In this document: positions 19,199 through 44,881 of the stretch, piece after piece
Layout: every line of letters starts with the position of its first letter
Position numbering within the stretch: position 1 is the stretch's first letter
From: Bugula neritina
Lineage: Eukaryota > Bryozoa > Gymnolaemata > Cheilostomatida > Bugulidae
NCBI GenBank assembly: GCA_964035545.1
Contig: OZ037770.1
Span: forward strand, 3,577,662-3,641,661
Direction: 5' to 3'
DNA length: 64,000 nucleotides
Program-made: the position numbers and the translations under genes
The notes under the pieces: model-generated
The model's database searches: none
The model's input: the letters and a program-made list of their open reading frames with translations, nothing else
Told to the model about the DNA's origin: nothing

Positions 19199-19206
19199 AT
19201 CAGGTT

Positions 19207-20782: not shown

Positions 20783-20814
20783 CTCTCAGGTAGCTCAGAT
20801 AATTTACAGTTCCC
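20783..20814 (-). CDS. 3' part of the split LRR exon of the Roco gene
   Basis: Minus-strand reading gives NCKLSELPER followed by donor GTTTGTG, the same ending and donor as the intact sister LRR exons at 44,744 and 44,142. The exon breaks off at a C run, where the giant element begins. Its missing 5' part is at 42,343-42,236. Phase 2 out, matching the Roc-COR exon. Confidence 0.85.
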
Positions 20815-20829
20815 CCCCACTAACAATTT

Positions 20830-21290
20830 ACATTGATATAACGTTGTATAAACGTTGGAAAAAACGTTTATTAAATGTTTAAATGTCGACACATTTTTGT
20901 ACTATATACAACGTTTGAAACAAACGTTTATCGCAAAACGTTTTACCAACCTTTCATAAACGTTGCGTTGCATAACGTTGTGTAGATGTTTTTCATACAA
21001 CGTTGGTGAAAGGTTGCGATCCAACATTGCGTAAATGTTTAAATTTAAATGTATCTCTTTGTCTCGCACAACGTTTAGGCAACAACGTTTTCTGCAAACT
21101 ATTTTACCAACGTTTCATAAACAAGTCATACAAACGTTGCCATAACATTGCTTCGGCAACGTTTTTATAATGTTGCAAAGCAAGCGTTATCTAGATGTTT
21201 AAATGTAGATGTTATTTAGCTTTTTTATCTAAAACGTTCTATAAACAACTTTTCATAAATGTTATTATAATGTTGTATAAACTCTATGCA
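20830..21290. repeat. Left subterminal AACGTT array
   Basis: At least 14 copies of AACGTT, usually as AAACGTTT or CAACGTTG, spaced 15-50 bp apart with diverged intermediates (AAATGTTT). The word is palindromic and contains CpG, which is otherwise rare here, so the density is striking. It could be the binding site of the element's transposase (inference). Confidence 0.8.
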
Positions 21291-21840
21291 GCATTGCAAA
21301 TTTAGGTTATTATAATTATTTGGCAAGGTTTACATAACCATTGCTATATTAAAATATATATAGCAGTATAATATATACAAGTGGAAGTTTTACGTTGTGT
21401 GTTGATAACTTTATTGTTTAAAAGTAAAGAGCAATAATTACAAAAAATAATTGTTACTAAAAAAACATGTGCAACCTAATATAAAGACTTATTTGGCAAT
21501 TTAAATGAGCTAAAATAAATTAAATATAAAAAATGTGGCTAAATAAGTAGATAAATAAATTCATATTGGAGCTAATGCAAAAATTATAGATAGCAACAGG
21601 TCATAAGAAATACACAAAAAATTTAAGCAGCCAAAAAAGTAAAGCTAATTTACAAATGTTGATTCAAAACATAGCTATTTAGTAAAGTCAACAAAGAAAA
21701 CATTTCTGTATATAAGCAAGTAAACGGAATAATACAAATTATCATTTTAGAACGCTAAACCCTTTATATCCAAAGCTGAACATTAGCAATGAGCTTTATT
21801 TACGCTTTGGAGATTTAAAGTTATTTTAGCTTTCTAATTA

Positions 21841-21988
21841 TTAAGCTTCATCCAAAATTGAGGTCCGGCTTAATGTTACAGAATATAGGCTTCTGAAGAC
21901 TGTGAATTCAGTCTGCTCATTCTTTTCCTCAAAATATATATTTAAGGCTTCAAAGTCTTGCTGCTCTTTACAGTAAGATGGTGACCAC
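21841..21988 (-). CDS. Candidate terminal exon inside the giant element
   Basis: After the acceptor TTTGTAG a frame of 49 codons runs to TAA at 21,843-21,841. It encodes WSPSYCKEQQDFEALNIYF and an acidic/hydroxyl-rich tail ending RTSILDEA. The composition is protein-like in an AT-rich region where such frames are rare, and the acceptor is good. It needs a phase-2 upstream exon, which I did not identify with confidence. Unrecognised family. If real, it would be the 3' end of a gene carried by the element, close to its left end. Confidence 0.35.
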
Positions 21989-22079
21989 CTACAAAGCAAC
22001 AAGAATACTGACTAAAAACAAAAAAACATTCAATGTAAATGTATATCTAAACTGTAGTAAAATGAAGTCGTGTTTAAGA

Positions 22080-23440
22080 ATATGTTGTGAAAATGGATGG
22101 GCAAATTCAAATTTTTGTTTATTTTTCTATAAAGATGACAAAAAAATTTGATGTATTCCTAAATGGGTAGGCAACTTTGACCTTATGTGCATTTCACTAT
22201 AAAATGACAAACAAGGGTGATCAGAAATAGGTGACAACTTCAAGTTTATGTAAGTTTTGCTATAAAGATCGCAAACAAGACAGTTCTTAAAATGGGCAGG
22301 CAACTTCACTTTTACTTAGATTTTATTATAAAAATGACTAACAAGAAAGTTGGAAAATGCGTGGACAACTTCAATTTTATGTACATTTCACCATAAAATA
22401 ATATGACAAACAGGAAAGTTGGTAATTGACTGGCCAACTTCAATTGTATTAATTACATTTCACTATAAACAACTAGCAAAAAAGTTAAATGGGTGGGCAA
22501 CTTCAATTTCATGTACATTTTACTATGAAAATGACTAACAGAACATTGAAAAATGAATGGACAACTTCAAGTTTAGGAACATTTTGCCATAAATATGACA
22601 AACAATAAAATTAGGAAATGGGTGGGCAACTTCAAGTTTATGTACATCTCACCATAAAATAATATGACAAACAAGAAAGTTGGTAATTGACTGGCCAACT
22701 TCAATTGTATTTACATTTCATTATAAACATGACTAGCAAAAAACTTTAAATGGGTGGGCAATTTCAATTTCATGTACATATTACTATGAAAATGACTAAC
22801 AGAACATTGGAAAATGGGTGAGCAACTTCAAGTTTATGAACATTTTGCCATAGATGACCAGCAATAAAATTAGAAAATGGGTGGGCAACTTCAAGTTTAT
22901 GTACATTTCACCATTCAGATGGCAAATAAGGGTGTTCAGAAATTGGTGGACAACCTCAATTTTATGTATATTTCACTATAAAGATGGCAAGCAAGACTGT
23001 TCAGATATTGGTGGGTATTTTTAATTATTTTACATTTCACTATAAATATAAAAAAGATTGTTCAGAGATTGGTGGGTACCTTCAATTTAGTATAAATTTT
23101 GTGTACATTTAACTATAAAAATGACTAACAATAGTGCTTGGAATTGGGTGTGCAAGCTTGACTTTATGCTAGTTTTACTAAAAAGATGACTAACAAAACA
23201 GTTGGAACATAGGTAGGCAACTTCACCTACATTTTGCTATAATGATTATTAAAATAATGTCTGATCATAGGTGGGCGACCTCACCTTCATACATACTGTT
23301 CTATAAAGATGACTAATAATTGGAAACTTGTGAAAATAGGTGGGCAACTTCTAATTCATGCACATTTTACTATAAAAATGACCAACAAGAAAATGGGGAA
23401 ATGGGTAAGCAACTTCCAGTTCAATTCCAATAACTTACTG
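22080..23440. repeat. 65-bp minisatellite, about 21 copies
   Basis: Tandem units of about 62-68 bp marked by GGTGGGCAACTTCAA, then TTTATGTACATTTCAC, then CTATAAA and GACTAACAA. I count 21 units from the CAACTTCA word. The block 22,380-22,560 recurs at about 22,640-22,820, which points to a four-unit higher-order duplication. Stray units sit near 24,545 and 24,780-24,870. Confidence 0.85.
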
Positions 23441-23639
23441 CTAAATATTACACTTTTCAAACAATTATTGATATAATGACCTAACTTTTTAAATAATATT
23501 ATCAGTGCATAACTTATTTATTTTTATTTATTAACTAAAACTTTAAACTTTTTGAAAAGTTTGGTCAATATTATAAGGCAAGAAGTGATGTATTAAATAC
23601 TACTTTCAAACATTACAAGCTTCAAATAATCAGAATTGG

Positions 23640-25545
23640 GCTCACCAACCTATCAATAAGTTCACATAGTGGCACCTGTGCATTCCTTCATATACAGTGT
23701 GTAAATTACAGATAACTTCATTGGTATGACTATAAATTTACCTAAATAGCCAAGTACATGGAAATAGCTAAACTCCTATCATTCAATGAAAGCAAGGTAT
23801 AGATTGGTTCTTCTTGATGCACAGCCTGGGTAATTTTCTTATCAAGTAATCACAGGTGTGAGAATGGCTCAAGGGAAATTATTATTTTCAGCCTACAAAT
23901 AATAAAATATGCACAGATTAAACTAATAATTAAAATAGATTTTAACAAACTAGTTTCTGGCAAAAAAGGAATATTTTGGAAAAAACTATAATGGTATAGG
24001 TTGAAGGAGTTAGGTGCAAAATGCATAACTCTGTTCATGAAAACATTAATTATGCATGTGTACAGTATTCGAGCTATAAAATTTCTATATTATTTAAACT
24101 ACTTGCTTGGAGCAAAATCAGCAACTTGGAATAATTTGAGGAATAAAATTTATGGAGATGATTAAACAACTTCAATTTGATGTAGGTTATACTGTCATTT
24201 TAATTAACTTTCTTTAAATTTTATCAGTGACTTTGGCTCCAAGTCGCAAATTTAATATTTCAGTAATTAAAGAATAAATAGCAATTATACACACAGAGTT
24301 AAATAAATTGTGTCAAATTCATATTCAAGTTTTTTCTCTAAAATTATCTGGTAACTATTAATTTGTTCACAACTATGCTGATTGCATGTGTTAATCACTG
24401 TGTCGTGACACTCATGCATGAACAGATATAATCTACAAGCACATATTGCTTGTTTTATAATAAACACAATATGAAGTATAATCTGAATTATTCTAGAAAA
24501 AATTAGCAGTAATTTGGAGTTATTTATCCACTAAAGCTTTATAAAGTGGGTACGAAACTTTTAATTTATGTATGATCTACTAACCACTATGCCATAACTT
24601 GATGATTTTTGTTCAATTAAACAGAATTGCGTTGTCAAAGAAAAGGTGCAACCTGCATATATAGATAAAAGCATGAAAAATTGCCTTTAGTATCCGTGTT
24701 CAAACAATGAATTATTATACATAACATTTGATTAAATCAAAGACTATAACAAAGTTGTTATTTAAGGCGATTTTAAAAAGTAAGTAGGCAACCTAAATTT
24801 ATTGTAAATTTTACTGTAATGATGACCAGCACAAATGTTGTGAAGAAGGTAGGAAACTTCAATTCAAAATAGGTAATCATGCACTCTGTCTAATGAAACT
24901 GGCACAGGCTAAAAGGGCATAGGTAATAACTAATAATGGCACAAGTAATTTAATGGAAAAATGAAATATTGCAGTCATTAAGTACCTTGATGATCAATTT
25001 AAACATGTAAAATTTTCAATCAACTCGAAAATTATTTTACAATAACCTATGAGAAAAAAGCAAAGTACTATCTTTCAATAGTTGCTTTTAAAATTTAAAA
25101 GACTGTATTCATAATTATTATTTATAGATTGCAAGCAATCTAAGCATTGTACCTAGCTTCACCAACATAATTACAAGAATAATATGGTTGGGAGTTGTGC
25201 TCACCATTTAATCAAACATGGTGGAACTTGTGCATTTCACAAATTTACAGTATGTGCATAATTGGTACTATTACAAATTACCTTCTTAGCCAAATTATAC
25301 TTGGAAATTGCTGAAATCCTATCTATCCGCCTATGCAGTTCTAGTTGATGCCGAGCCTAGATATTTTTATTAGCTTCAAGTAGTCACAGGTGTGATAATA
25401 GCCTGAAGAAAATTCATACTTGTATTCCTGCAAATAATATACACATTTAATAGACTGCAACAAACGTTTTATTGAACAAAAAGCAACAATCTTTTGAAAA
25501 GACTCTGTACTTAAATATAGTTGCTTATGGAAGAGATTCAAGATG
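23640..25545 (-). repeat. Diverged duplication (about 23,640-24,000 and 25,195-25,545) with candidate small exons
   Basis: The two segments share a collinear order of blocks (GGTGAGC, the CCTATC and CAAGTA region, then AGTARTCACAGGTGTGA). On the minus strand the right copy holds a 75-bp exon candidate at 25,356-25,282 (acceptor ATCTAG, donor GTAATT) encoding ARHQLELHRRIDRISAISK plus six residues. Its counterpart in the left copy carries a stop. The left copy holds a 30-bp microexon candidate at 23,675-23,646 whose partner has lost its AG. Phases do not chain cleanly to the exon at 21,988, so a gene is not proven. Confidence 0.35.
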
Positions 25546-25819
25546 CTTGTACAATCATAAAATTGATAAAAATGATCACCATGTGCATTTTATTTCTGCT
25601 ACGTTTATTCCACGTCATATAAAATACTTGCGTAATGAATAGAAGTAGCACTTTATAGTGTTTACTTAGCATCCTTCTTTCCAACTTCAGAGTCAGAATG
25701 CTTTTCCATATTAGAGTAATCAATATAACCAAAGTAGTGAAAAGGATTATCTGAAAAGAAAAATTTGTGAACTTACAAATATGAAATAATAAGATAATAA
25801 TATATATTGATATTAACAT

Positions 25820-28800
25820 AGACTATAAAATTTAATTAAAACGAAATTTTTTTTGATTGAAAAACAAATTTTGCAAATAAGTTGCTTTTAAAAATTAATG
25901 TAGGAATATATACATTTACATTAGATTAGCAATAACTTGACATTACATTTATTTAAGACATAAGTTTACAAACATTTTCAATTTATCATCTATAATACAA
26001 TTATTATTTTTAATATTATTAACTCTTAAGTTTAAAAGTTTGAAATTAAATTCAACATGGGAGATTCGAGACCTCTAGCTTTAAATTAAAAACTACTGAG
26101 ACAATGAAATTAAATACATCTATAGTTCTACTGGTCTAACTTTAAGTTACACCTCTTATAGTAGTACTAGTAGTAGTAGTACTATAAGGATGATAAATTA
26201 ACGTTTAACTTATAACTATAGTCTCACTGATCATAGTGTTAGTTAAGAGATAAACTTGAGTATATATAATGGTAATTCTTCATTAATATTACAGTTTTCT
26301 ATTAAGTTGCGTCTGATAACTTATTACATTTGTAAGTGATACCAAATATATGTTTAGTGGTCTAACCTGTATTTTGGCGAATCTCCATGTTTTTCAAATC
26401 TTTAAATAAACCCCTGTGGAAGGGCAGTTCGAAAGTCTTTCTACAACCAGCTATTAAAGAAAGTGTATTATTAGCTTGCATTAAAAGCCAACAATGCTCT
26501 GTATAGCCTGAAATAATGGCTTGTTGTATGTAATCCTTTCAGTAAAAGCTATTCCTTTTATGCAAAATTTGCTTTATTTGTGCACCTAAGTAACTTCTTA
26601 AGAGTACACCGCGCATTGAAATAATTTCTTTGTTCAAATACCCACTGTACACCTAGCTTATAATTTATAGCCAGTATACAGATTATACACTGTATACACT
26701 AACGTTTAAGCTATGAGCAAGTTTCAGAATATGGTATCATATTTTCAGGATCGAATAAGTGCATGGCGAAAATTCATGGTTATGTGCTGGTTATTTGGAG
26801 AAGTTTAGAAGAAATGTTGCCAATTAAGAATATGTTTAACTTTAATATTGCAAATTACCAGATGCCTGAAGTTTTGAAATTTTAGTATTTTGCATCAAAC
26901 TTAGGCAAAAATTTTATGCTTTAACAAAATAACCACATATACCCCATTCTAACATTGCAAAGACAGATGTTACCAAGTTGATACATGACTTGTGCCAGCA
27001 GCTTAAACCAAAATATAATAATAATATTATTTGATGGGTGTACATAAATTTTGTTGATAACTAAACAATTTTTTAAAAATTGGCTCAAAACTGTTGGTTT
27101 TACACAATTTTTTTATGTACACACAGTATGTGAATCACACCAATAGTGAGTCAAACTGATTTAATAGACTAATTATTCCAATTTGTTGGCAATTTTGAAA
27201 TAAAGTTGAAATGTAATTTTTAATGATTGGCTTGTTTATAAAGTCACAGTTTATTTTAATGATGTCGAAATTTACAACTTTATTTCATTATCTCACCATA
27301 TAAAATTCCAAAATTTCTATTGAAAACTGCATGCATCTAAAAATAGCTGAGTAACTGATTCTACTAGGGCATTATTTAGATTTACTTATTTGAATTTATG
27401 TCTTAACCCTTCCCAGATCACAGATACATGTATTATGTCTTTTTAAGCTTTTTTATTCACAGGTTAATTGAGCGAGTACGCCCAGTAAATGTACAAATGA
27501 TACCGCCTATGTTAAAGTTTTAGCTTTAGACCAAATTACTTCAAGATTTATATAAGCAATGTTAAAAATGCACCTCAGTAGTTTATAGATCATTATAGAC
27601 AATAAATCTGAATAAATGAAAAGCTACAAAGCCAGCTAATAACTTTTAATTCAATACCAGAATACTAAAATTAGCAGTACATTTTGCATTGTTTTTATAA
27701 CTTAAAAGAGTTAGCTATTTGGCAGCCTTGTAGAATTAAACGCAATGACTCTGAAAAGTTAAAAGGTTAAATGAATCATACGTAAATTTGCTAATAATTG
27801 AAAGAAATAATGTCTGGACTGTTATTATGAACTATATAGCATTGAATGGGTTTAATAACAGGGTTGATTTGGAGACTTTATAACACCAACATTTATAAAA
27901 GTACTCTTTGATCATTAGACCAGTCTTAATAGTTAATACATCAATGGATCTCTTGAAAGATTTTTCATCAAATAATATATTTGTAATTTACCGGTATATG
28001 TTGTACGACTAAAATAATGGAAATTCATTTAAAATTGTGTTTGGCAAAATATACAGTACTTCGATTAGGTTAGCATATGATTATCACATACAATAGATAC
28101 CTTTTCATGTACGGCTCACAAATATAATGTTATATAACAATGCTAACTAAAAAAACTATGATTGATCAACTTTTATTCAGTTGTAAAGTTAGTTGGTTTT
28201 TAAATTTTTATCCTAATAACTGTTTATAACTCATTGCTCAACTTGTTGCGCCTAAAGTCATTCCTGAATGAACTACTTGCATTCAAGGCTGGAGTAACTA
28301 TTAAAGCTGCTTGACTATTAGGTTTTTAAGGTGCTTTAGTCAGGTTTGAGATTTGGAGTTATATAACTATATATTATAACTATTTATACGTCAACCTAAA
28401 AGATTGTCTTTATTTAAAATAGGGTGCTGTCCAGAATTAATAAATAGAGAGTGCAGATTGTCTTCAAAGTCCAGGTCTAAAGTTAAACATAAATATAAAT
28501 AGCTAATTGCTATATTTATATTTTTGCCACTATAAATTGGTTATCTACAAGCTGCTTAGCTGCCTCACTAGAAATTGTTATATATGGTAGCTAACTGTTT
28601 TAGCCAAAGCCAGTAGTCTTGGAAAGTAAAGCATATAAAGTATATACCCAGTGGTCAAAATATCCATGTGTAACCATCTGGTATAGTATTATTAAACAGG
28701 GCAACTTAGTCTAAACATTGCTCTTTTGTTTTACTGGAACTAACTACAGCTATAAGTTACTGCCGCTGAACTGAAACTATAGTTCTATAGTTACTGCTAC

Positions 28801-29412
28801 ATATTTATCTCAATCCTAAGTAAATAAGTCTTATAAATATTATGCTTTGATGCATTATTTCCATGTAATCTTAAAATTTAAGTAGGCTCTTACAATATTA
28901 TTATGTAATAGTCCTTCATTTGAATAAGCATTAAACTCCTTGTTTACTACTCAACAATAAACATATACGGTGCTCCTGCAAACATTTGGTTGTATAAACT
29001 ACATAAGCAAAGCATTAATATGGCCTACGTAGCTGAGTGATATTTTTGTAGTTTATTAGTTTACCTCAGTTGGAAGCAATGGGACTAATTTGAAATAATG
29101 ACCACTAAACACCAATCTGTCACATAATGAGACAAGACATTTTTTTCTACTACTGAATTTTAGTGCATATATATATCTTCTTTTAGCCAATCACTTGCAA
29201 TGATTTCAGGTAAAAATGGCACAGGTAAATATAGCACAGGTGATAATGGCACAAACGGAAAGTTAGGTAAAAATAACAAACTGATGTGAAATTTTCTCAA
29301 ACCCCAAGTCCAAACCACCCACCTGAAACCCAAGCTGCCAACCTTGGAATCCAACCCCAAACTGAAACCTCTATTCCAAACTCCGACCCCAAACCCTAAT
29401 TTTGAAAGTGTA
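25820..29412. other. Non-coding interior of the giant element
   Basis: AT-rich DNA with no frame above about 60 codons that looks protein-like. A short palindromic block with TAGTAGTAGTACTA lies near 26,160-26,190. Words such as GGCACAGGT recur near 29,220. Confidence 0.45.
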
Positions 29413-29420
29413 CCATTATT

Positions 29421-30489
29421 TGGTGATTAATCAATATTTGGAAGGCCCATTGCTTCGAAGGTGCATTAGTCCTAAAATTAGTAGAGATAGTATTATATCG
29501 CTGAGAATATCATAAATTTCACTTACGATCTTGCTATATTATTGCTAGCTGTAGGTGGCATGCGTGTGGCTTACTTGTAATTTTTTCAGCCTGAGATTAC
29601 TTTACGATGCTGCTTCAATCAGGGCTACATAATATATCAACATTCTATTGTGGCTGTCTCATAAACTAAGTACACAGCAAGCTATTCACTAGCCTGTCAG
29701 CTAGCAAGCCTGTAATTAGTAATCTATGAATTAGTACCTCCTCATCTCTTCATCTGAGTGTTGTGCAAGGGTGATTTAATTAGTATTTTTATTTCACAGT
29801 TCATATAAAAATGACAGCTATGGGCAATGAACTCAAAATAGCCAGTTCAATGGCTATAGGGACTGCAATTCTATTCTAGCTAATGTCAGTCAGCTTATTT
29901 AGGCCTTTCATATGCTTACTATTAACTGAAAAACTAAAGTAAAAATATTAAAGCCAAGCAAACATTTTGGGTCTGCTGGACTGTATTTATGATAAGCTTG
30001 ATAAAAGTTTACCTCATAGTTTATAAAAAATAGTTTGCATTTTATTTTGGCGCCAAAAAATTATTAGTATATTCAATGAAATAGTAAATTTCTGGCTTGG
30101 CAATTAATTATTTGATATCACATTTAATCTCTAAAAGCATTTTTAATATCAGTAAATGCAAGCATTTAAGACAAAAAAAGATAAACATCTTGGACGCTAC
30201 TTAAAATTAAATAACCAAAGCTGCACGCACACCATACCCCAAACGAAACAACTCTACAAGATATGTAGATAACTGATAAGGGCAAAATTATTAGCATATA
30301 AGAGTTCAGGCTTGCTAAATGAAGCCTCACCTAACCTAAAAGTTAAAAACTATGTTGCATATCTTCCTGTTGCTCAGAGCAACTTTTTGAAATGTTCAAT
30401 GAATAATTTTAATTCTGATAATAATTCTACTAATTTTCGGACTAATGCATTTTAGGAGCAATGCACCTTCAGAATATTGCACCGTCCCC
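29421..30489. mobile_element. hAT-type non-autonomous element, copy 2
   Basis: A 1,069-bp element collinear with the copy at 18,101-19,198 along its whole length, with the same start (TGGTGATTAATCAATATT) and end (CCGTCCCC). It is flanked by the perfect 8-bp duplication CCATTATT (29,413-29,420 and 30,490-30,497). It lies inside the giant element, so it inserted after that element formed or was carried in as cargo. No coding capacity. Confidence 0.88.
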
Positions 30490-30539
30490 CCATTATTGCT
30501 TGTGCCATTATTACCAAGTCTTGCCATCTTTAACCTGGG

Positions 30540-31205
30540 TACCAACTTGAAATGCATGCTGCTTTGTTATTACAGCATGAATGAAATATTTATTTGGAAT
30601 TTTGATATTGATGATGTTAAATTCATAAACTTATGTGTTGAATTTACAATCTTAAAGTAAGCTATTCTAGCAAGCTAACCCACCAACCCCATTCTTGCAT
30701 GCTTTTAAGGGTTATAGTTGATTGTATATGTGCTTGTTTAAATAAAGATGCTACCTAAGCTGTTATTTGCAGCTTTACACTATTTACCAAACTTGCACTT
30801 TAATGTAGCTATAGAAACTATTCTGAAAAATGTTTTGTACATTAGGAAGCACAGATAAAAAATTACCATGTGAAGATTATTTTGCTAAAACTCAGTGCTA
30901 TCCCAGCCAATAAAATTTTACCTTAAAGTAGTATATTTGTGAACTGCCTTAGCCTCTGATACTTAATTGTAGTATAGTGTTTACTGGCTAATTGTATTTT
31001 CTAATTCTAATAATAAAGGGTACAACAAACGATTATACCAATAATTTTTACTGAAGACTGCGTGTCAAACTTCTAGCTCACCTTGCCATCTATTCTTAAT
31101 TACAGTTTGAAATACATCTTGCTGGTCTAAGACCTAAGTTCTTGCATTGAAACATAGACTTTATTCAAACTAGTAAGACTAAATTAATTAGTACCAACAC
31201 TGCAG
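30540..31205. repeat. Dispersed repeat shared with 51,020-51,575
   Basis: The order of blocks is the same as at 51.0-51.6 kb: GTTATTACAGCATGAATGA, TTTAATGTAGCTAT, CAGTGTTTAC-like and TAGCTAATT, then CAACACTGC. Identity is moderate by eye. No terminal repeats seen, so the class is unknown. Confidence 0.5.
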
Positions 31206-31296
31206 GTAACGGTGGGTAGTTGGGGATTTGAAAAATTTTACATCAATGTTCCATCTTATCTACTCTTTCATTTTTCATTATTACTCTACCATTATT

Positions 31297-34200
31297 AATA
31301 GACCATGTAAAACTCAGCCAATCAGCGAAGTGTACCAGGTCAATGTCTTACCATTGTAACTGATATAAAATTCTGCAAGTTCAATTGCAAAATGCATGCT
31401 TCTAAAAGCTAGTTGTGCAACTTTTTTTTCATGCATTATTTAATTTCATATCTTAAATTGATGACTCTTGAAATGATTTTTTAAAATGTCTAAATTAAGT
31501 GTTTATAAAACGCAATTAAAAATTGCATGTCTAGAAAAATGACGTGGTACACTTTTGCAACTTAAGGCCAATTATTACATAACTGCCAGCTTAGTAGTTA
31601 TTTGTTGTTGCAGCTTGAATGGGTTATTGTTTAGCATTGGAAGCTTGCAGTAAACATCTGTGAATTTGGTACATGACTTTGATTGGCTGGTTTTTGAATG
31701 GCCCTTTAGTATATGCATCTGGATGGCTGGGTAGTGTAGACTCCGCCTACATCTAGCTAATGTACAGTAGCCAATCCACAGTAGTATTACAAAATTTCTG
31801 TTTAACAAATGAAATATTCTGGTCATTTGTTTTGTACTTTACAATAGTAAATATTCTATTCAACTATAATTTTATTGTATGTAAGCCATGGGAACTACTA
31901 AGAGGTTAAATCAACCACCCATGCTGGTAATATTGTTGCTCGCAGTAATAGCAAGTCCACACCATATAGATATACACATAAGCTATTATGTGCAGCTTAT
32001 GAATGCTGAAATGACCCCATTTCTTACTTTCAATTTGAAAAAAATTGTATTACATATTCTGCCACTTCTGCACCAAGAATTTGTTTTCCTTTTAAATTTT
32101 GAAAATAGTAGTCAGTTTCTGCAGCAGTCAACTGCATCCACAATAAACAACGTAAGTTTTCAAATAAACTATAAATATATGAAATATTAGTGTGGAAACT
32201 ATGTAATTTAGTTCTTGCTATGATGAAGAATTACAAGAATATTATATTATAGAAGCTAGATATAGATTTCTATAAAATGGCGCAGGTAAAAATAACACAT
32301 TTTTACTTCAAATTCTAAATTTCATCAGTCACCAATGGTGGCTGTAGATTACAGAGAGCATAGCAGACTATCATAATCATAAGGATGGTCAGCCCACTGA
32401 GCAAAATCCAACTCCAACCTTTCATTTGGGTTACCAACGCACTAAAGCATATAATGTAAGACGAACAAAAAACAGTGGTTTTAATGAAACATGTGGAGGA
32501 AGCGAACAGAAAACGTTATCAACAGAGTCAGCTGATATAGAGCAACAGAACTCATCTGACAGCCATCCTCATAGTCAGACTTCATCAGAAGTAACTGAGT
32601 TACCAGAATCATCAACTACTCAGAAAAAAAGATCTGCACATTCTATTGATAGACGAAAATCAAAAGTTGGAAGAAAAGGCTCAAAAAGATCCATGTTTAA
32701 ACAAAAAGCAACTATTGAAAAAGTAAAAGTTTTTAAAACTTTCACCACTACAGATGAGCAAACTAAATTCTATACTGGAATACCTACACGTTCTTTATAC
32801 TATTTTTTAGCAAGGTGAAAATTATGATTTTCTAATTGCAAAGATAGACTATGGTTTATTACAAATAAACAATGCAAGTCTCACTATGCTAAAATTTCTA
32901 CATTGATTAAATTTGATGTGTAGTAAAACTGTCATTTTAATTAAATTTGTTGCAGTGTGAGTACATCATTCATACATTTTTTATTAAAGATGTTGTTTTA
33001 TGTAAGATATTCATAAATACCACAGTGGTCATCTGTATGCTTTGACTTATTTAGTTTAGGGTTTTATTTAAACAAGCAGCAGTATTTTATTCGTGGACAA
33101 ATTGACTCACTTTCTCTAGGAAAAGTAAATTGTTTTGACTTAAATTTTCCTTGGTTATTTTAAAGCTTATCAAAAGTGGCCTCCTAATCTAATTTTTAGC
33201 TGAAACTAACTCAGTGTTTAAAACTAAAATGGTTTACACTGGTTACTAGTTTCACTTATTCACAAATATTATTAAATGCTATTCTAGAAATAATATGGGT
33301 TTGAATTAGTTATAGTATAATTATAAAATGAAGTAATAATTGTTTGTCCACAGTATTTGTTTAAACTCATAACTTCATTCAAAGCATGTATTCATACAAC
33401 TAGCTTACCATGTACTGTTACAGTATTATGTAACACATGTTGACACACATTACATTCTGTTTGGATGGTGATATATTGGGTCAAGCCTTCAGCTAGCAGT
33501 TCTTGAACTTCATAGTTGTTGCAAAATATAACTGAAGCTACTTACCAGAGGGTAAAAACTGCTGAATGAATACAAACTAAGCACAAAATTTATTTAGCAC
33601 ATACATTATAATTTGAATTATAATTTAATTTTCATTCTTTATTTTCTATATTTAGATTTATATGTCCGAAGATGAAAGTTCTTATTCTCCAAAAAAAGTT
33701 AACAGGACAAGATAGACTTTTATTGGCTTTGATGAAGCTGCGTCAAGGTTTACAGTTTCAAATACTTGCTGGCCTTTTTTATATCTCTAGATTGCTAGCA
33801 AGCAAAACCTTCCAAAACACATTAGATATTTTAGCAAGAGAACTGAACAATCTAATAGTTTTTCCAACAAGAGAGAAGCTGAACATCCCTCTGAGCTTTC
33901 AAAGCCAATATGCTACCATATATTTATAGTTTATTTGAAAGCTTACGTTGTGGATGTTGACTGCTATAGAAACTGACTACTATTTTCAAAATTTAAAAGG
34001 AAAACAAGTTCCTGGTGCAGAAGTGGCAGAATATGTAATACAATTTTTTTCAAGTTGAAAGTAAGAAATGGGGTCATTTCAGCATTCATAAGCTGCACAT
34101 ACTAGCTTATGTGTATATCTATATGGTGTGGACTTGCTATTACTGCGAGTAACAATATTACCAGTATGGGTGGTTGATTTAACCTCTTAGTAGTTCCCAT

Positions 34201-34791
34201 GGCTTACATACAATAAAATTATAGTTGAATAGAATATTTACTATTGTAAAGTACAAAACAAATGACCAGAATATTTCATTTGTTAAACAGAAATTTTGTA
34301 ATACTACTGTGGATTGGCTACTGTACATTAGCTAGATGTAGGCGGAGTCCACACTACCTAGCCATCCAGATGCATATACTAAAGGGCCATTCAAAAACCA
34401 GCCAATCAAAGTCATGTACCAAATTCACAGATGTTTACTGCAAGCTTCCAATGCTAAACAATAACCCATTCAAGCTGCAACAACAAATAACTACTAAGCT
34501 GGCAGTTATGTAATAATTGGCCTTAAGTTGCAAAAGTGTACCACGTCATTTTTCTAGACATGCAATTTTTAATTGCGTTTTATAAACACTTAATTTAGAC
34601 ATTTTAAAAAATCATTTCAAGAGTCATCAATTTAAGATATGAAATTAAATAATGCATGAAAAAAAAGTTGCACAACTAGCTTTTAGAAGCATGCATTTTG
34701 CAATTGAACTTGCAGAATTTTATATCAGTTACAATGGTAAGACATTGACCTGGTACACTTCGCTGATTGGCTGAGTTTTACATGGTCTATT
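31297..34791. mobile_element. Foldback DNA transposon with ~880-bp terminal inverted repeats
   Basis: The left arm 31,297-32,181 and right arm 33,917-34,791 are near-identical inverted copies starting AATAGACCATGTAAAAC. A frame in each arm encodes the same 83 residues, which shows how similar the arms are. Between them is the 5' part of a PIF/IS5-like transposase gene. The outer flanks show no clear target duplication. Because the transposase lacks its catalytic half and is frameshifted, the element is non-autonomous. It is nested in the 21.4-kb element. Confidence 0.88.
32426..33916 (+). pseudogene. PIF/IS5-like (HTH_Tnp_4/DDE_4) transposase, 5' half
   Basis: Exon 1 (ATG at 32,426, donor AAG/GTGAAA at about 32,814) gives a Ser/Gln/Lys-rich, probably nuclear segment ending FYTGIPTRSLYYFLA, the usual start of this transposase fold. 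Exon 2 (acceptor TATTTAG at about 33,657) holds the helix-turn-helix: LTGQDRLLLALMKLRQGL, then ILAGLFYIS, then VFPTREKLNIPL. An A7 run at 33,691-33,697, one A too many for the frame, shifts the reading between the splice-joined start and the HTH. The frame then meets the right inverted repeat at 33,917 and stops, so the DDE catalytic domain is absent. The product, if any, could only bind DNA. Confidence 0.75.
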
Positions 34792-35364
34792 GTGCCATTA
34801 TTGCTTGTGCCTGTGCCATTTCTGTCAGACACCCTTTCTGTTATATGAAGTTATCACAAAGGGGTTTTCTAAACGGCGTGGATATACTTTCTCACAGCAA
34901 AGAGCAAAACTTAGAATGTTTCACTCAGAACTTACATTACTAATTCTAAATAATAGCTCAACTGTAAACAAACCCATTATATGCCAGCTAGCTAATTCAT
35001 TAGTTTCATACTAAGTTCCAAAATGCTACATAATCACCCAAATGCTAAATTTAATAACTCATTGTTGCTATGATAACAAGGACAGAATGTATTGTCCGTT
35101 GTACCAGCAACAGCTGCAGCTATAAGCAGCCCAGTAAGCCTTGAGGAATATTTTCAAACACATAATTTTCAACAGCGCGGCCACGATTAAATTTTAAAGT
35201 ATTAATAAATTCTATGCTCAATATATGCAAAATTTGCTACAAATATTTTTAGAAACATGCAACGCGCACTTGAACTTGAAAAAATTTATTTAAGTTATAA
35301 TGGTGAGATATACCAGCGGTGTCATTCTACTTAGCCAGTTTTCACTTATACCATATTTGTAAAT

Positions 35365-35730
35365 TTTAGCGTAATATATGTATTTTATACTATTATTTAG
35401 CACATAATAGAAAGCAAGAAGCCACCAGCAAGCTACTTACAGTAACAAAGCTTCTATAAGAAGCCATCTTGCACAAACCTTAAACCTAAAGGTAAAAGAT
35501 AGACAAGATATAATAAGAAAAAGTTGCAATATAGCAGTACGTGATATACCATGATATGCATTTGTGCATTTTATTCTGTTATTCTGAATAAAATAAACTG
35601 TAGCTAAACTAGTATTGAGTCAAAGCAAATAGCTGGCTTGGTAGCTTGTTTCATGTTTAGCAGTAAATGCAACAGTTATATTTGCATATTACTGTATATA
35701 TTGTACCAAAATAAAAAAATAGTCCAAGTG
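35365..35730. repeat. Direct duplication, left copy (about 365 bp)
   Basis: Nearly identical to 36,375-36,740: both run from TAATATATGTATTTTAT through CATCTTGCACAAACCTTAAAC to GTACCAAAATAAAAAA. The copies are about 1 kb apart in the same orientation. Confidence 0.85.
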
Positions 35731-36312
35731 GTATGAAACCTCACCAGCACTACAATACTCTAGTCTAAGATGATATCATGTTTCCTCATGATTGTACATT
35801 GCTGGTTATAGGAACAAAATGATTTAAGTTGTGGTATGCAAATCTTATGTACATATTTTCTTTAGTCTTTATAGAATACATTACTGTTTATTCTGCTAAA
35901 TAAATAAATATTTATAAGTGGTATGCACAGTCTGCATTGCATCTCATTTAGCTTATTGTTAAACTCTGACCAAAGTAAAACTACGAAACCAGAGTAACGT
36001 TAGTCCAAATGACATGAAACTGAATATTAATATAAATCTTGGCTACAATTCTGACGTTTCCAGCTATTCAGCACTGAATAATTGTACTCTCATTATATAT
36101 TAAAACTAAATATATGCAGTAGATTCAAACTTCATGATAAGGCTAAACATTTTAAAGCTAATAAGGCATGAGTATTTCAAATTTATATGCATACTGTACT
36201 ACCACTTTATCCTATACTAAAATACCTGTAATTTCAACTGCAGTATAACTTAGTTTAAGTTGTTTAAATTAGATTATTTCTGTGTGTTTTCCAGGTATCA
36301 TCTTATTTAGAC

Positions 36313-36345
36313 GCTTCCCACATAGCTGCTGTCTATGTGGGAAGC
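36313..36345. other. Perfect 13-bp stem-loop
   Basis: GCTTCCCACATAG and CTATGTGGGAAGC are perfect inverted copies separated by a 7-base loop. The arms are GC-rich in an AT-rich setting. It lies just left of the second copy of the duplication. Too short for a standard animal pre-miRNA. Confidence 0.7.
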
Positions 36346-36374
36346 TTCTATTTATATATTTTATAAATATTTAT

Positions 36375-36740
36375 AGATTTTAGAGTAATATATGTATTTT
36401 ATGCTATTATTTAGCACACAACAGAAAGTAAAGAAGCTACCAGCAAGCCTTTTTACAGTAACAATGTTTCTATAAGAAGCCATCTTGCACAAACCTTAAA
36501 CTTAAAGGTAAAAGATAGACAAAATGTAATAAGAAAAAGTTGCAATATAGCAGTACGCGATATACCATGAAATGCATTCGTGCATTTTACTCTGTTATTC
36601 TGACTAAAGTAAACTGTAGCTAAACTAGTATTGAGTTAAAACAAATAGCTGGCTTGGTAGTTTATTTAATGTTCAACAGTAAATGCAGCAGTTATATTTG
36701 TATATTGTTATATATATCGTACCAAAATAAAAAATCGACT
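36375..36740. repeat. Direct duplication, right copy (about 365 bp)
   Basis: See the left copy at 35,365-35,730; differences are scattered substitutions and small indels. Confidence 0.85.
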
Positions 36741-36864
36741 AACTGGGATGAAACCGTTTTCCATGCTCAGTGCATCTATATGATGGGTTTGTTCTAACCG
36801 CTATTGTTCAAATTTTATCTATCAGTTGGTGAAAATATAGGCAATGTAAGATAAATTCACTAGT

Positions 36865-37170
36865 TTATGTAAAAACTGATTTGTTGAGAAAATTTGTAAA
36901 ACCTAAAAGTAAAATGTACAATGGATAAATGTCATTCATGTATATTAACTTTGTGTATGGTATGTTACAGACCAGTATTTGCCTATCACCCCATCTGGGG
37001 TACATGATACAGGTGTTGTTATTAAAGCACTGCAAACAAAGGCATTCTTTTTTGAAATTAGTAGTCGGCTGGTGAAAGTAAACATAAGCATTTGTAGCTT
37101 TCATGAACCCAAAACCCATCTTTCTAAAAGTTTTATTTACTTCTAAAGTTGTTTGTCCCTGTATAGGCAA
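36865..37170 (-). CDS. Doubtful 101-codon ORF in the giant element
   Basis: An open frame from ATG at 37,170 to 36,865 with cysteine-rich and aromatic stretches (ECLCLQCFNNNTC). Another minus frame over the same DNA, following an AG at about 37,031, also reads protein-like (ITTPVSCTPDGVIGKYW). I recognise neither. It may be an exon relic of element cargo or chance. Confidence 0.2.
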   Translation of the reverse strand: MPIQGQTTLEVNKTFRKMGFGFMKATNAYVYFHQPTTNFKKECLCLQCFNNNTCIMYPRWGDRQILVCNIPYTKLIYMNDIYPLYILLLGFTNFLNKSVFT

Positions 37171-40100
37171 ACACTCTCATTGAAGATTTTTAATGTTGCT
37201 CTGAGAAAAAAGGATGTCAAAGGAAATATTACTTCACAAGCTTCAACTACTATAGTATAAAGAATAAGAATAAGCACTTCATAAAAATTTTAACTTACAA
37301 GTTGCAAAGTGTTTTTATTTAAAAAACATAACACTTCATACTTCATAAATTGATAATATATTTCTTTGGGGTTTTTTAGAAAATATGCCAAGAGACATAA
37401 AAATATATTGCAACTGCTAGTGCTGACCATCCTTGTTTAGAAACCTAAAACTTTTAGTCAACCAAACAAATTTAATCAAAATGTAGAAATCACTTTTCAC
37501 ATCATAAATGACGTATTTCTTGCTTTAAATTTGTAGTCTAAGATTATTTTCACAAAAGCTCTTTAGATGTTTTACACGTTTTACAGGAAAATGTCAATTA
37601 TAAAGTGGCTATGCTCTAATAACAGTTGTGACCATCTGTAAAAGCTGTGCTTGCTTCCAATACAATAGTTAGTTCATTGAAATATAACTGGAGAGGCAAC
37701 AACTGAAGCTATTAAAATATTTTATTTTGTAGCTTGCTCTATTTATCCTAGAAATAAAGTACTTGGTTCCCACCATTTAGCATTGTACTCTTTAAATAGT
37801 TCAGGGTACAACTGTCAAAGCATTTTGGCTGGTACACAAAATAGTTCAATAAAATACTTTATAACAGTTTTGTTCTATTGAATATTGACTAGTCACCCTT
37901 AAAGCAAATTATAGCCTATCCACGTTGCCAGCCAATAGGTTCCACGCTAATGTACTAGAAATAGAACTTATCAGCACTCAGATAAATTAAAATTACAATT
38001 GTCAATCAACATAAAACTAATATATAGTAGCTAGTCTTTTAAAGTGGCCTACAGCAAGAAGTAGTTATTTTTACCGGTCTATGACAAAACATAGGAAATA
38101 TCTATTCTGTCAAATAGTATCTGAGTAGTTGTAAAATTTGTTTGAAATACTGGTATTATGCACAGCATAGCCTATTATAAATATAATCAAAGTATGCCAG
38201 CAAATGAGACTTATAGTTTACTCTGTTACTACTGAACACTGTAGTAGTATTCACACAATTCACACTGCACTATTGCTATAAGTAGCTCAGTTAGATATGT
38301 AAGCTAGTATAATATATCTATTAACTTCAGTATAGTTATCCATATCTATTGTCTCATGCAAAAACTTTTTATGAAGTTTAATACTTCTAGTGTAATAGAA
38401 TATAGTAATGATGTCACTTAGCTCTGGTCCATTTAGAGCTATAGATGATTATATACTAGATTTATCCCCTTTTCATTGGTAGGAAAGCTTCTAATCTTTA
38501 TTCTGGTGCATGCGCTTTCAACACTGAATAGAAATTTATTGTCTTCTGGTGTTTATAAGGAAAACTCGTATCTAGTTGCAGACTATTTCCAGCTGTTAAA
38601 CCTATTTTTCAATTTGGTACCTTTATAATGTATATATATATATAGCTATATAACTGTAGATTGATTGCTAAATAGCTGATATGCTATAATAGTTATAATA
38701 GCTAATTATCTAAGTATCCGGAATAATAGTTCACATTTCACAGAATTGCTCATGGCAAAAACAGTAATATGGTAATAATAAACATTATTTTAATGAATAC
38801 CTATTAACACATTATTTTTCAATCAACAATAAGTAGAGAATATGCAAAATTATTAAATGCAATTAAATTAAATCAAATTAAAATCAATGCAGATCACAGA
38901 AATTTCTTCATGTACTGGATATAACAAACAATTGATCCAACTTTATTTAACTATGATATATTTTAATATTATTCAAATAAATATAGAATAAATATTATTG
39001 TACAAAAATAAACAAATAGTGTCTAAGTAAGATAGATTCAAGTAGGAAATTTAGCCTAGCATCTATAATAAATGGGAACCATCTATATCTGCGATGACAG
39101 AATATATTAATCGATAATATTTATAATCTACAAAAGTTACAACTAAAAGTCAAAAAGGTTCTAAGGCAGTAGAATCTCAGGGTGTCTTCAATGTTTTGAG
39201 AAGTAATATTTTGGAGTATTGAAATTACATGTTCTTCAGAGTTTATAGGCCAATATTGTTAAAAATAAACATGTTTTGAAGTTGAGATAAAATCTTGTTA
39301 TAAAAGTTAAAATTGAGAGCATAAAAAGATTATAGACTTTATAATGTGTTTTTGGTGAATTTTGATTTTATATGTCGGCAAATCTGTTTGGATCTTGTTT
39401 GAGGGATACAATTTGATTGACTTTATACAACTGGCAAAAAGTTCAGGATGAGTTTGCATTACAGATGAAGGGCTGGCACATGTTTTGGAGGATATAAATT
39501 TTATTCATTCAGAGTTTAAAAGAAAAGCAGTGCACTGGTGTGTTCTGCAGTGCAGATGTATAGAGTTTAAAAAACCTGCATTGCAAAATCCGAATATTAA
39601 TATGCAATTTATACTACAAGTTTGTAAATTCTAAACCAGCTCACATATTGTATTATTTTAATTGGTTTAACATCCTATATTGCATTGCTTGAAACACCTA
39701 GGTTATATAATAAGTCGGATAAAAACATATAAATCTGGCTCCCTACAGCTTTACCAAGGATATTAACGATGCAAGTGCTCTTAGCCTATCTATATAACTA
39801 TAGCCAAAATAATTTATCTAACTAGAGAGGATATCAGAAATTTGCAACAATATGGACATTGCATCTTGGTTTATAATGAAGAAGTTCCAGATTTAGGATA
39901 TTATATTTATATTGCTAACAAAAGAATTGCTTTGAATAAACTGTAAAATTTAATCTTCAAAATAGCAAGGCATAGTGCAAGGTAGTTAAATGATCATCGA
40001 TTTTGTATAAAATAATAAACAAGTTGAAGTATGACTGTTAGTTAAATAAAATAGATGTAGATAGTCATATTTTACAACTGATGGCCTAATTCTTAATGCT

Positions 40101-41279
40101 GCCTAACAGAGCTATATATATATATCAATTGATTCCAGTTAACGCTGTTTTATAATTTTGAAAGAAAATCTCATGTTGAGTAGGAAAAGCATTTGCATGC
40201 TTTTAATAGGTTAATGTCTAGTTTATTTGTTGACTAAAAGTTACCATAAGAAAAAAGCTGTCTATTATGTACATATTTGCATTTAAAAAAAATCTGTTTA
40301 CTTTTTAAAAATTTCTCAAGTGGCAGCATTGGACTTGAATTGATATAAGAATACAACTTAGTTTCCCACAATAAAATTCAAAATGGAGTTGCTTTTAATT
40401 TTATTTACACCAAAACAGGCAAAAATGCACACATGCACAAACCATGTGCACACATGCACACGTAAAAACCTAATTATAATTTAATAAGGAGTTATATTTC
40501 CAATATACATTATCCTAGTTGCATTGGAAGGCAAAATTGAAGGAAAATATTTCACAGTAACACCTTATGTTACACTTCGACTTAATTAAATTTCAGACAT
40601 ATAACATTCAAGTCCATTACAATATTTTATTTACAGAACTCTGGTGCAATTTCAATTTTGAATATTAAGATTCAACAAAACCTAACCTGAACGAATTTTC
40701 AAAAGACATATTTTCAGTAACAGACAACTCTTAAAAACTTCATCTAATCAAGCGAATTTTTACTTAAGATAGATTGCGCAATACTACTCCGGTAACTAAC
40801 GCGTAATTTAACATCAGCGTTATTTTTTAAAGTGCAGCAAGCACATTTTGTAAATTATTAAACGTTTTGTTTTAATCACTATATATAGCTGTCAAGCAAG
40901 CTATTAGATAGCTTTTGACGCTAGCTTTTATGCAACCCACTATAATTAAATTCATGATCACCCAATAAACTTGTTATTTAGTTTTTTCATATAAATACAC
41001 TGTTTATGTTTTTTTAGCCTAAGTTTTCCTACTCAACAAGTCAAATTTCTTCATTATATTGTCATCAATTATCAATAAGAATAACTTGCCATAATCAGTA
41101 AAAAGTTGCCCTTCAAATTCAATCTTTTATTAGGAAACACTTTAGATATCTTCTTCTTTGCTCTAATAAATTATTGTTTATAATTACAAAAGTTCTTGCT
41201 TTACATCAAACTTTATATAACACTATAAAATAATTATAAGCACAGTTGTAGAAATAGAGAGAGTCCGCAACTCCAACTA
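37171..41279. other. Non-coding interior of the giant element
   Basis: AT-rich, with no sustained frames, no terminal-repeat structures recognised, and only short TA runs (38,630, 40,110). Confidence 0.45.
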
Positions 41280-41319
41280 CAAAACTAAATATTTGAGTTG
41301 TGTAAAAATAGATTATACA

Positions 41320-42215
41320 ACGTTTATAATATTCATTGATGAAACATTTTTTTAAAACATTTTAGTAACCTTACTGAGAAACTGTTTTAGTAACGTTGTT
41401 TTATAACATTAACCTTATATTGGAGAAAAAACGTTGCATTGAAATGTTGAAGTAACGTTTTATTGATGTTTTTTGAAAACCTTTTTTAAAAAAGGTTTAT
41501 ACAACATTTCAAAATACATTCATGCAACCATTTTATCAAACATTTGAACAACATTGGTATTAATCGTTTCTTCAACATTGGGTTAAAACGTTATGTTTAT
41601 GTTTGCCAAACAACGTTGTTTGAAATGTTCTATGAATGTTGTATAAATGTTTAGTAAAACAATTTAGTTAAAACATTTATAAAACATTTTGAAAAAACAT
41701 TGATCCAACCTTTTTATCAAACATTCTATTAACCTTGGTAAAAATCATTTATTGAACGTTGAATTAAAACATTGTCGTTACGTTTGAAAGAAACGTTGTA
41801 TTGAAATGTTGTATAAACGTTGTATTATTGTTTTATTGAAACAGTTTGTGCAAAACGTTGATAGAATGTTTTGAAAACAACATTAACACAACCTTTTTTT
41901 CAAACACTTAATAAACCTTTGAAAAATACATTTATTAAACGTTGGGTTATAACGTTAATTTTATGTTTAGAACAAACGTTGCTTTGAAACATTCTACCAA
42001 CGTTTAATGGATGTTTTGTTACAACGTTTGGGTCAAACATTTAATGAACGTTGTGATATACATTTATACAACAACTTTTCTCAACATTTATTAAATGTTT
42101 GACCAAAATGTTGACTTTAAACATTTATCAAACATTACCATAACGTTAAACGGAAATGTTTGATTCTAATGTTGTGAACAAAACCTTCTGACAACACATC
42201 CAAAGGTTGTATAAA
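41320..42215. repeat. Right subterminal AACGTT array
   Basis: About 18 copies of AACGTT plus many one-mismatch forms (AACATT, AAACATTT) over 0.9 kb, ending 20 bp from the right terminus. It mirrors the left array but is longer and more decayed. Confidence 0.8.
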
Positions 42216-42235
42216 CGTTTCTTGTTAGTTGGGGG

Positions 42236-42343
42236 CCCATATTCAACTCTTTGAGTGATGTGAGTGATGACACAACTTTTGGTACTGTGTTGACAGGATT
42301 CCATCCTATGTAGAGTTTCTCTAACTGAGTCAGCTGACATATA
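42236..42343 (-). CDS. 5' part of the split LRR exon of the Roco gene
   Basis: After the acceptor ATTGCAG, the frame reads ICQLTQLEKLYIGWNPV, then TVPKVVSSLTSLKELNMG, the first 36 residues of the 46-residue two-repeat LRR exon seen at 44,881 and 44,279. It stops at the right end of the giant element. The remaining residues are at 20,814-20,783. Confidence 0.88.
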
Positions 42344-42552
42344 CTGCAATATAAAGTGTATGATGAATGTAGACTGACTTATACATTTTATAATTGCAAA
42401 AATTGCTATAACTACCATATAATTATGACGGATATGACAACTACATGTACCATCACCTTGTTTCTTCACTACAGCTTTATTCAACTTATCATGACACTGG
42501 AATACTATATAGGCGAAGATATATTAATGTACCATAATGGTATACAACTATT

Positions 42553-42735
42553 TAGGGGAGCAGCCGTAGTCTAGGGGTTAGAGCATATGCCTAGCAAACA
42601 CGAAGGTCATGGGTTTGAGCCCAGACAAAGGCCATTGGTGATATTAGGAAAAGCATCCAGTCATAATTGCTCCTGTGCCTCATTTAAACAATTCCTTAGC
42701 CCGATTTAGACAGGGATAGTGACTATAAATTTGCG
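42553..42735 (+). mobile_element. tRNA-derived SINE
   Basis: The head resembles a tRNA: an A box-like TAGTCTAGGGG (42,567-42,577) and a B box-like GGGTTTGAGCCC (42,611-42,622), with GGTTAGAGCAT between them as in many tRNA-SINEs. A body with AAAAGCATCCAG follows and resembles common SINE/LINE tails. It would be transcribed by RNA polymerase III. The tRNA part cannot fold into a normal tRNA, so it is not a tRNA gene. Confidence 0.75.
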
Positions 42736-44141: not shown

Positions 44142-44279
44142 CTCTCAGGAAGAGTAGATAATCCACAGCTCATCAGATTCAACTCTTTAAGTGACGTGAG
44201 TGATGACACAACTTCTGGTACTGTGTAGAGAAGATTATCTTCTATGTCTAGCTTCTCTAACTGAGTCAGCTGGCATAAA
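44142..44279 (-). CDS. LRR exon of the Roco gene (138 bp)
   Basis: Acceptor TTACAG, donor GTTTGTG, both phase 2; it encodes 46 residues, i.e. two 23-residue leucine-rich repeats (LCQLTQLEKLDIEDNLL, then SSLTSLKELNLMSCGL). It chains in phase to the split exon at 42,343. Confidence 0.85.
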
Positions 44280-44743: not shown

Positions 44744-44881
44744 CTCTTAGGTAGATTAGATAATTCACAGCTCCTCATATTCAACTCTTTAAGTGATGTG
44801 AGTGATGACACAACTTCTGGTACTGTGTCGAGAGGATTCCATCCTATCTCTAGTTTCTCTAACTGAGTCAGCTGACATAAA
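44744..44881 (-). CDS. LRR exon of the Roco gene (138 bp)
   Basis: Same size, splice phases and repeat structure as the exon at 44,142-44,279 (LCQLTQLEKLEIGWNPL, then SSLTSLKELNMRSCEL, ending LPKR). It lies directly upstream of it, and the high similarity suggests recent exon duplication. Confidence 0.85.

Follow-up and report, generated by a model that had tools for sequence, protein, structure and literature searches.

The 64,000-nucleotide stretch of Bugula neritina DNA analysed here, called the window (contig OZ037770.1, positions 3,577,662 to 3,641,661 of the forward strand; G000:C6:3577662-3641661 in an assembly of 215.8 Mb and 295 contigs), carries what appears to be a minus-strand leucine-rich repeat (LRR)-Roc gene of the Roco type that extends downward from about 45 kb. 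One of its 138-bp LRR exons lies in two pieces, 20783-20814 and 42236-42343, and between them stands a giant insertion with the ends of a DNA transposon. The gene order would be LRR exons 44744-44881 and 44142-44279, the split exon, and then a large exon with the last LRRs and the Roc domain:

44744-44881, minus strand: intact 138-bp LRR exon, upstream
44142-44279, minus strand: intact 138-bp LRR exon, upstream
42236-42343, minus strand: 5' piece of the split LRR exon, from its acceptor CAG; holds the second duplication copy, CC (42236-42237)
42234-42235, no strand: extra GG at the right junction, the reverse complement of the CC duplication
20815-42233, no strand: whole insertion, 21,419 bp, with termini CCCCACTAACAA ... 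TTGTTAGTTGGG that are the same in 11 other paired copies
20783-20814, minus strand: 3' piece of the split LRR exon, to its donor GAG/GTTTGTG; holds the duplication copy CC (20813-20814) and aligns to C6:3846120-3846257
11588-13657, minus strand: next large exon downstream, a stop-to-stop frame of 690 aa with the last LRRs, the Roc GTPase and a presumed COR region

The two exon pieces (32 bp and 108 bp) add up to 140 bp, that is, 138 bp plus a 2-bp duplication, and their outer ends lie at an acceptor CAG/TATATG (42344/42343) and a donor GAG/GTTTGTG (20783/20782), where the first-pass annotation of the window had placed them. That annotation had described a ~21-kb transposon spanning 20783-42343; these positions are correct as exon ends, but the element itself occupies 20815-42233, and although the insert does measure 21.4 kb, positions 31300-34788 of it are a later nested insertion. 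The left junction reads ...CAGTT-C-CC to 20814 and passes into CCCCACTAACAA at 20815, while at the right junction TTGTTAGTTGGG stops at 42233 and is followed by GG (42234-42235) and then by CC-C-ATATT. The ends are inverted, as had been noticed, with 11 of 12 bases alike between 5' CCCCACTAACAA and CCCAACTAACAA read inward from the opposite end. Two to three extra bases had been ascribed to a target duplication; two of them are indeed a duplication, but the further GG is not part of it and is absent from the empty site described below. The two intact 138-bp exons with which the split exon had been compared (44142-44279 and 44744-44881) are present as described.

The same contig holds, at a distance of about 250 kb, a near-copy of the locus that supplies the empty site. 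Between 781 and 47646, five blocks of the window have counterparts in C6:3833097-3851564, in the same order and orientation and at 90-96% identity (matches above 300 bits). A weak block (68%) breaks this order, and the window matches past 47645 (97-98%) are those of a dispersed repeat. Window 19199-20815 aligns to C6:3844523-3846152 and window 42236-47646 to C6:3846150-3851564, the two blocks meeting at 3846150-3846152. The near-copy exon is contiguous and 138 bp long (G000:C6:3846120-3846257), its sequence at the site is CAGTT-CCCC-ATATT, and the extra GG is missing; both upstream LRR exons have counterparts as well. The empty site thus equals the window flanks with one copy of the duplication, the GG aside, in a comparison that covers the window copy of the element only. 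Both exon halves keep the reading frame of the near-copy (the right half translated, the left half by eye), which bears out the earlier statement that they still match, and with the near-copy exon whole and the insert belonging to a dispersed family, the division of an LRR exon of a Roco gene by a large transposon is upheld. Because the sister exons share its 138-bp length, the whole exon is, on these alignments, taken to be the ancestral state. The same exon is therefore present filled and empty within one genome, a natural before/after comparison.

The insert belongs to a family of giant elements. When the first 1.29 kb of the element was used as the query (40 of 44 candidates scored), at least 48 places matched; at least 16 loci carry a left end that is 94% identical or better (a 201-bp piece on C6 not counted), the left ends of the copies being 94-100% identical. 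The last 0.94 kb matches 32 places, among them 14 right ends at 97% identity or more. Thirteen left and right ends pair in the correct orientation, the window included, on C1, C2, C6, C7, C8 and C9, with spacings of 8.7, 18.0, 18.3, 18.3, 18.9, 19.9, 20.2, 21.4 (window), 22.4, 24.6, 30.4, 35.2 and 38.0 kb. The first-pass annotation had named a non-repetitive interior at this locus in all relatives as a finding that would count against it; the interior proves to be a repeat whose paired copies are spread over six contigs. A contiguous 138-bp exon, whose lack was to weigh in the same way, is found in the near-copy. Both termini (CCCCACTAACAA / CCCAACTAACAA) are intact in 12 of the 13 paired copies. 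A much older copy on C1 (C1:18986450-18994450, ~8 kb, 67-72% identity) is collinear at both ends. The high identity of the left ends, together with the fit of 12 of the 13 pairs to their own duplication, indicates that the family moved recently.

Within the insert, the element proper accounts for ~17.9 kb, and the remainder is the nested 3,489-bp element:

20815-21813, no strand: left end, with the terminal inverted repeat (TIR) and then AACGTT motifs, 15 in this kb
22161-23014, no strand: internal minisatellite with a period of ~63-65 bp, present in other copies
29432-30479, no strand: segment like a miniature inverted-repeat transposable element (MITE), with 62-bp inverted ends that are 81% complementary; diverged copies lie elsewhere in the genome, and it is common to several giant copies
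31300-34788, plus strand: nested younger DNA transposon, 3,489 bp, with the AT duplication at 31298-31299 and 34789-34790
33693-33845, plus strand: HTH_Tnp_4 (PF13613) stretch in the nested element, remnant of a DDE transposase
40814-42233, no strand: right end, with AACGTT motifs and terminal TTGTTAGTTGGG; 19 motifs in bins 40814-42813

The AACGTT motif is concentrated at the two ends (15 copies in the opening kb, 19 in the final two bins), with 0-2 per kb between them and 0.09 per kb elsewhere in the window, and since the arrays are confined to the ends of the element they are predicted to be transposase binding sites. The arms of the nested element are near-perfect inverted copies of each other, with 10 differences in 836 bp, and the nested element is missing from the giant copy on C2, where a single AT stands. 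On account of its HTH_Tnp_4 remnant it is classed, from its sequence, as PHIS-like (PIF/Harbinger-ISL2EU-Spy).

The flanks of the other copies bear on how the element inserts. A direct 2-bp match is found in 9 of the 11 other copies with intact termini (AT, TT, TC, CT, AT, TA, AC, AA and CT), as against 5.5% for unpaired flanks, and none of 100,000 shuffles reached nine. Matches of one, three and four bases occur in 2, 0 and 1 of the 11 copies, respectively, the sole 4-bp match standing at a TA repeat. In the two exceptions, C6:6319164-6327910 (extra AG) and C8:6090115-6120543 (extra GG), as in the window, the right terminus is followed by the reverse complement of the left dinucleotide and then by the dinucleotide itself (AG-CT, GG-CC and GG-CC, respectively). 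All 12 copies with intact termini thus fit a 2-bp duplication, nine directly and three with a palindromic addition, and the extra GG is absent from the ends of the nine regular copies. The palindromic arrangement appears in 4 of 132 unpaired-flank combinations, and the composition-based chance of an exact reverse complement is 0.0013-0.0034 for each of the three copies. A corresponding test at the left end picked out two copies; their duplications, AT and TA, are self-complementary and carry no information.

Palindromic additions are what hairpin opening leaves in V(D)J and hAT systems, and the right-junction palindromes in 3 of the 12 copies point to hairpin processing of the DNA beside the right end. 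They may perhaps record aborted excision, in its simplest form an excision begun at one end and re-sealed. A hAT-derived enzyme that makes hairpin-capped breaks, and for which the TIR and subterminal repeats are important, is described in an excerpt of PMC4763223.

The element core appears to encode no protein. When the whole insert was scanned in six frames against Pfam (E<=0.05, over 20814-30002, 29900-33802 and 33500-42240), no domain was found in the core, the sole family being HTH_Tnp_4 within the nested element, and the longest frame that lies wholly in the core is 103 aa. With no DDE transposase found in the core, the element was filed as non-autonomous. When the window copy is aligned to the old C1 copy (5,542 bases in four blocks), 159 indels are seen, of which 27 are divisible by three, and one 50-codon window remains open; against an 81.5%-identical copy over 26015-29034, four windows are open, all with a ratio of nonsynonymous to synonymous change (pN/pS) above 1.1. 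The Roc exon, which served as the positive control, gave 76 open windows. The minus-strand frame 36868-37176 was considered as a coding candidate and not adopted, though its pN/pS is low; it has no Pfam match and no protein-database homologue sharing three words.

A transposase was also sought elsewhere in the genome. The terminal pattern CCCMACTAACAANNT occurs at 32 places, 27 of which are left ends of the giant family (partial ones included), with 5 others against 6 for the reversed control; CCCMACTAACAAGNNA occurs at 15 places, 14 of them right ends of the family, with 1 other against 4 for the control. The terminal patterns thus reveal no autonomous partner, as places outside the family are no more numerous than in the reversed controls. 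Much of the extra DNA in the long copies matches a second giant repeat (~5.9 of 9.7 kb in C8:6104000-6113700 and ~7.2 of 9.0 kb in C6:757500-766500), and no transposase was recognised in parts of one variant and two long copies, judged from frame listings alone, with no Pfam run. A diverged copy at C7:14.08-14.10 Mb contains a 74%-identical relative of the nested element and has no frame above 159 aa, and no candidate was recognised downstream of two partial left ends (no Pfam run). A genome search with PF02992, for a CMC transposase, gave no matches, and 14 control genomes searched likewise gave none. DDE_Tnp_4 matches number 107.

On its sequence, the giant element is assigned to the class II (TIR) DNA transposons, because dispersed copies have TIRs at both ends and a 2-bp duplication. 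Its ends are 5'-CCC..GGG, and its duplications are varied (AT, TT, TC, CT, TA, AC, AA and CC). CACTA elements combine short TIRs with arrays of short subterminal motifs, a likeness that the giant element shares. The letters CACTA are present in its left end, but they are not in the right end and the duplication lies outside the CCC, and CACTA membership was rejected. Helitrons have neither TIR nor duplication and are excluded, both being present here. MITEs are short. Together with large retrotransposon derivatives they resemble the giant element in having no protein gene and in moving in trans; the giant element differs in its DNA-transposon ends and its length of ~18 kb. Polinton/Maverick elements carry capsid and polymerase genes. 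They are excluded by the lack of such Pfam families in the insert and by the 2-bp duplication, theirs being 6 bp according to an excerpt of PMC10045372. The CMC lineages (CACTA/EnSpm etc.) have duplications of 2-5 bp, a range that includes 2 bp, but mostly 5'-CA..TG-3' termini (PMC12730594, in part), unlike those found here, and the giant element has no transposase. Plavaka ends are 5'-TGT or 5'-CATCA in the same excerpts of PMC12730594. The PHIS group has 0-4 bp duplications, as given in parts of PMC10045372 and PMC12730594, which again include 2 bp; the genome is rich in DDE_Tnp_4, and a PHIS-like element is nested in the giant one. The core, however, holds no PHIS transposase, a fragment being confined to the nested element, whose ends (AGACCATG..) and AT duplication contrast with the varied duplications of the giant family. 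The 5'-CC..GG-3' termini of piggyBac and IS1380 are similar, but the piggyBac duplication is 4 bp (PMC10045372, in part), as against varied 2-bp duplications here, with a 4-bp match in 1 of 11 copies. The combination of ends and 2-bp duplication thus matches none of the superfamilies in the excerpted PMC12730594 and PMC10045372. No description of the giant family was recognised in the part of the literature searched. In an excerpt of PMC6431247 on giant eukaryotic transposons, DNA between two long terminal repeats (LTRs) rarely exceeds 10 kb in total, and the giant element exceeds the length of the non-coding elements mentioned there.

We hold with good confidence that a giant non-autonomous DNA transposon, moved in trans, lies in an LRR exon of one Roco-type gene copy, that it later received a nested insertion, and that its right junction is of a hairpin type. 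A DNA transposon with 12-bp inverted ends would have inserted into one copy of the duplicated gene and duplicated 2 bp of the target. Because the element has no detectable protein gene, the transposase that moved its ~17.9 kb would have acted in trans, recognising the TIR and probably also the AACGTT arrays; the 3.5-kb PHIS-like element would have inserted later. The palindromic dinucleotide would have been left by an excision that started at the right end, formed a hairpin on the flank and was then re-sealed. Several observations weigh against this account. No transposase sharing the ends of the giant element was found, so that mobilisation in trans is deduced. The palindrome rests on three copies, two of them with the same letters (CC/GG), and the window's empty site alone has been verified among them. 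Three of the 16 left ends and 1 of the 14 right ends lack a partner, and the pair C7:2611106-2631322 has an eroded right terminus and was dropped from the duplication count. Finally, two minus-strand stretches show low pN/pS: in two comparisons each, the best 50-codon windows give 0-0.34 for 36868-37176 and 0.36-0.38 for ~35442-35613. For the former, the ratios over the whole frame are 0.24 and 0.73, and the frame extends further in the C2 and C7 copies (to 124 and 159 aa, respectively).

The near-copies could be two uncollapsed haplotypes of one locus, which would make the insertion a heterozygous polymorphism in one animal instead of a difference between paralogues. Five collinear blocks at 90-96% identity, in the same orientation and ~250 kb apart, are compatible with this reading, which we find possible though doubtful, as an additional block breaks the order, the copies are unlike in exon numbers and in where the second giant repeat lies, and related exons recur over 2.5-6.1 Mb of the contig, suggesting a true tandem array. 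Misplacement of a repeat inside the exon during assembly is very improbable; the element is a multi-copy repeat and no reads were examined, but the junctions are clean, the 2-bp duplication lies within one exon, the C2 copy lacks the nested insertion, and 11 further copies have different flanks with matching duplications. More remote still is that the near-copy is the product of precise excision and the occupied state ancestral, since sister exons of the array have the same 138 bp without a footprint and the element family is otherwise dispersed, even if such excision is known in some superfamilies.

The non-autonomous reading of the element must also be set against the improbable one that it encodes an intron-rich transposase too diverged for Pfam and is the founder of a new superfamily. 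The termini and varied 2-bp duplication that fit no superfamily described in the excerpts of PMC12730594 and PMC10045372, the two stretches of low pN/pS with one frame longer in two other copies, and the near absence of exact terminal patterns outside the family (5 and 1 places, against 6 and 4 for the reversed controls) would all agree with it. Nevertheless, no frame above 103 aa lies wholly in the window core outside the nested element, the old copy has frame-breaking indels in all four shared blocks, no transposase was recognised in the parts of the variant and long copies listed, and frame 36868-37176, for which no homologue sharing three words was found, has an end altered by a 20-base indel. 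The origin of the extra GG is less one-sided. We give somewhat less than even weight to the insertion step (imperfect repair of the target gap) or carry-over from the donor site as its source in place of aborted excision; the extra pair is always at the right end (3 of 12 copies), the element end might have variant forms, and two of the three copies share GG. Set against these points, the extra pair is in all three cases the exact reverse complement of the copy's own duplication, which then comes next, and a dinucleotide brought from the donor would not track the new target.

For the host gene, the annotation's phrase "otherwise intact" is borne out for the four exons that the analysis covered, namely three LRR exons and the Roc exon. 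The Roc exon is open over 690 codons, is 97.1% identical to the near-copy without gaps, has 41 relatives, and carries a Roc GTPase domain (PF08477, 31.9 bits against a Pfam cut-off of 27), with LRR exons alongside, as in a Roco gene. Its COR region gives no Pfam match at E<=0.01, while relatives aligned over at least 90% of the exon (P0032, P0033, P0037 and P0040) carry PF16095. Read-through of the split exon would run from ...KELNMG into the insertion and reach a stop ~22 codons on; skipping the exon would keep the frame, as 138 is a multiple of three, at a cost of 46 codons (about two LRRs). The insertion may alter splicing of the host gene, which, lying in a cluster of many related LRR exons, may tolerate losing one 46-codon unit in frame. 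Exon insertions of Ac/Ds and similar elements can be spliced out or skipped. They are alike in that a coding exon hosts the transposon and splicing could rescue the gene, and unlike in that the giant element is far longer.

Around the gene, a degenerate LRR/Roc exon copy (46457-46918, minus strand), in which similarity breaks off, is probably the remnant of a neighbouring tandem gene. Caspase-like frames lie downstream at 3873-4124 and 4393-4611 (minus strand), the latter with Peptidase_C14 (Pfam) and the former with VVILEAS, by eye, where the catalytic cysteine motif is expected. Adjoining the insertion, 42555-42740 is a candidate tRNA-derived sequence like a short interspersed element, with A/B-box-like motifs by eye. 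LTR-retroelement remnants occur at 7609-7713 (Integrase_H2C2, Pfam) and, recognised by eye, at 8772-9476 and 16113-16940.

Other copies of the giant family show further arrangements. One in the opposite orientation (G000:C6:3651406-3670323) lies ~31 kb beyond the window copy and forms an inverted pair with it. On C8, at several places from 273634 to 4048891, there are eight exact CCCCACTAACAATTT left ends whose match to the element (87-92%) stops after about its first 215 bp. In one of these copies the flanks appear, by eye, to be coding, which would fit a single truncated insertion having multiplied along with a gene family. A 17-kb insert in a C9 giant copy (G000:C9:3094225-3111201) has flanking matches that overlap by 8 bases, which suggests a giant element with an 8-bp duplication, and a 4.2-kb insert inside the C9:9.58-Mb copy holds a stop-free DDE_Tnp_4 match (G000:C9:9571390-9571806). 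The second giant repeat occupies window 47645-64000 and is 98-99% identical in at least 15 long copies including the window (20 of 1172 candidates scored), on C1, C3, C5, C6, C7 and C8 among the matches listed. By eye, its frames at 56640-56933 and 57200-57571 resemble remnants of a reverse transcriptase. The long giant copies on C8 (30 kb) and C6 (38 kb) have parts of this repeat nested in them.

These findings raise the questions of which transposase moves the giant element and how its size is tolerated, and the reverse-complement dinucleotide at three right junctions offers a specific and testable clue to the chemistry. As a tentative and rather unlikely extension, the family may be what can be seen of a DNA-transposon superfamily not yet described, one with 5'-CCC..GGG ends, a 2-bp duplication that tolerates varied sequence, hairpin chemistry beside the right end and a ~18-kb non-coding unit that has kept moving. 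If this is true, a transposase supplied entirely in trans would be able to mobilise very large DNA in the B. neritina genome, and the dinucleotide palindrome would be a readable scar of aborted excision.

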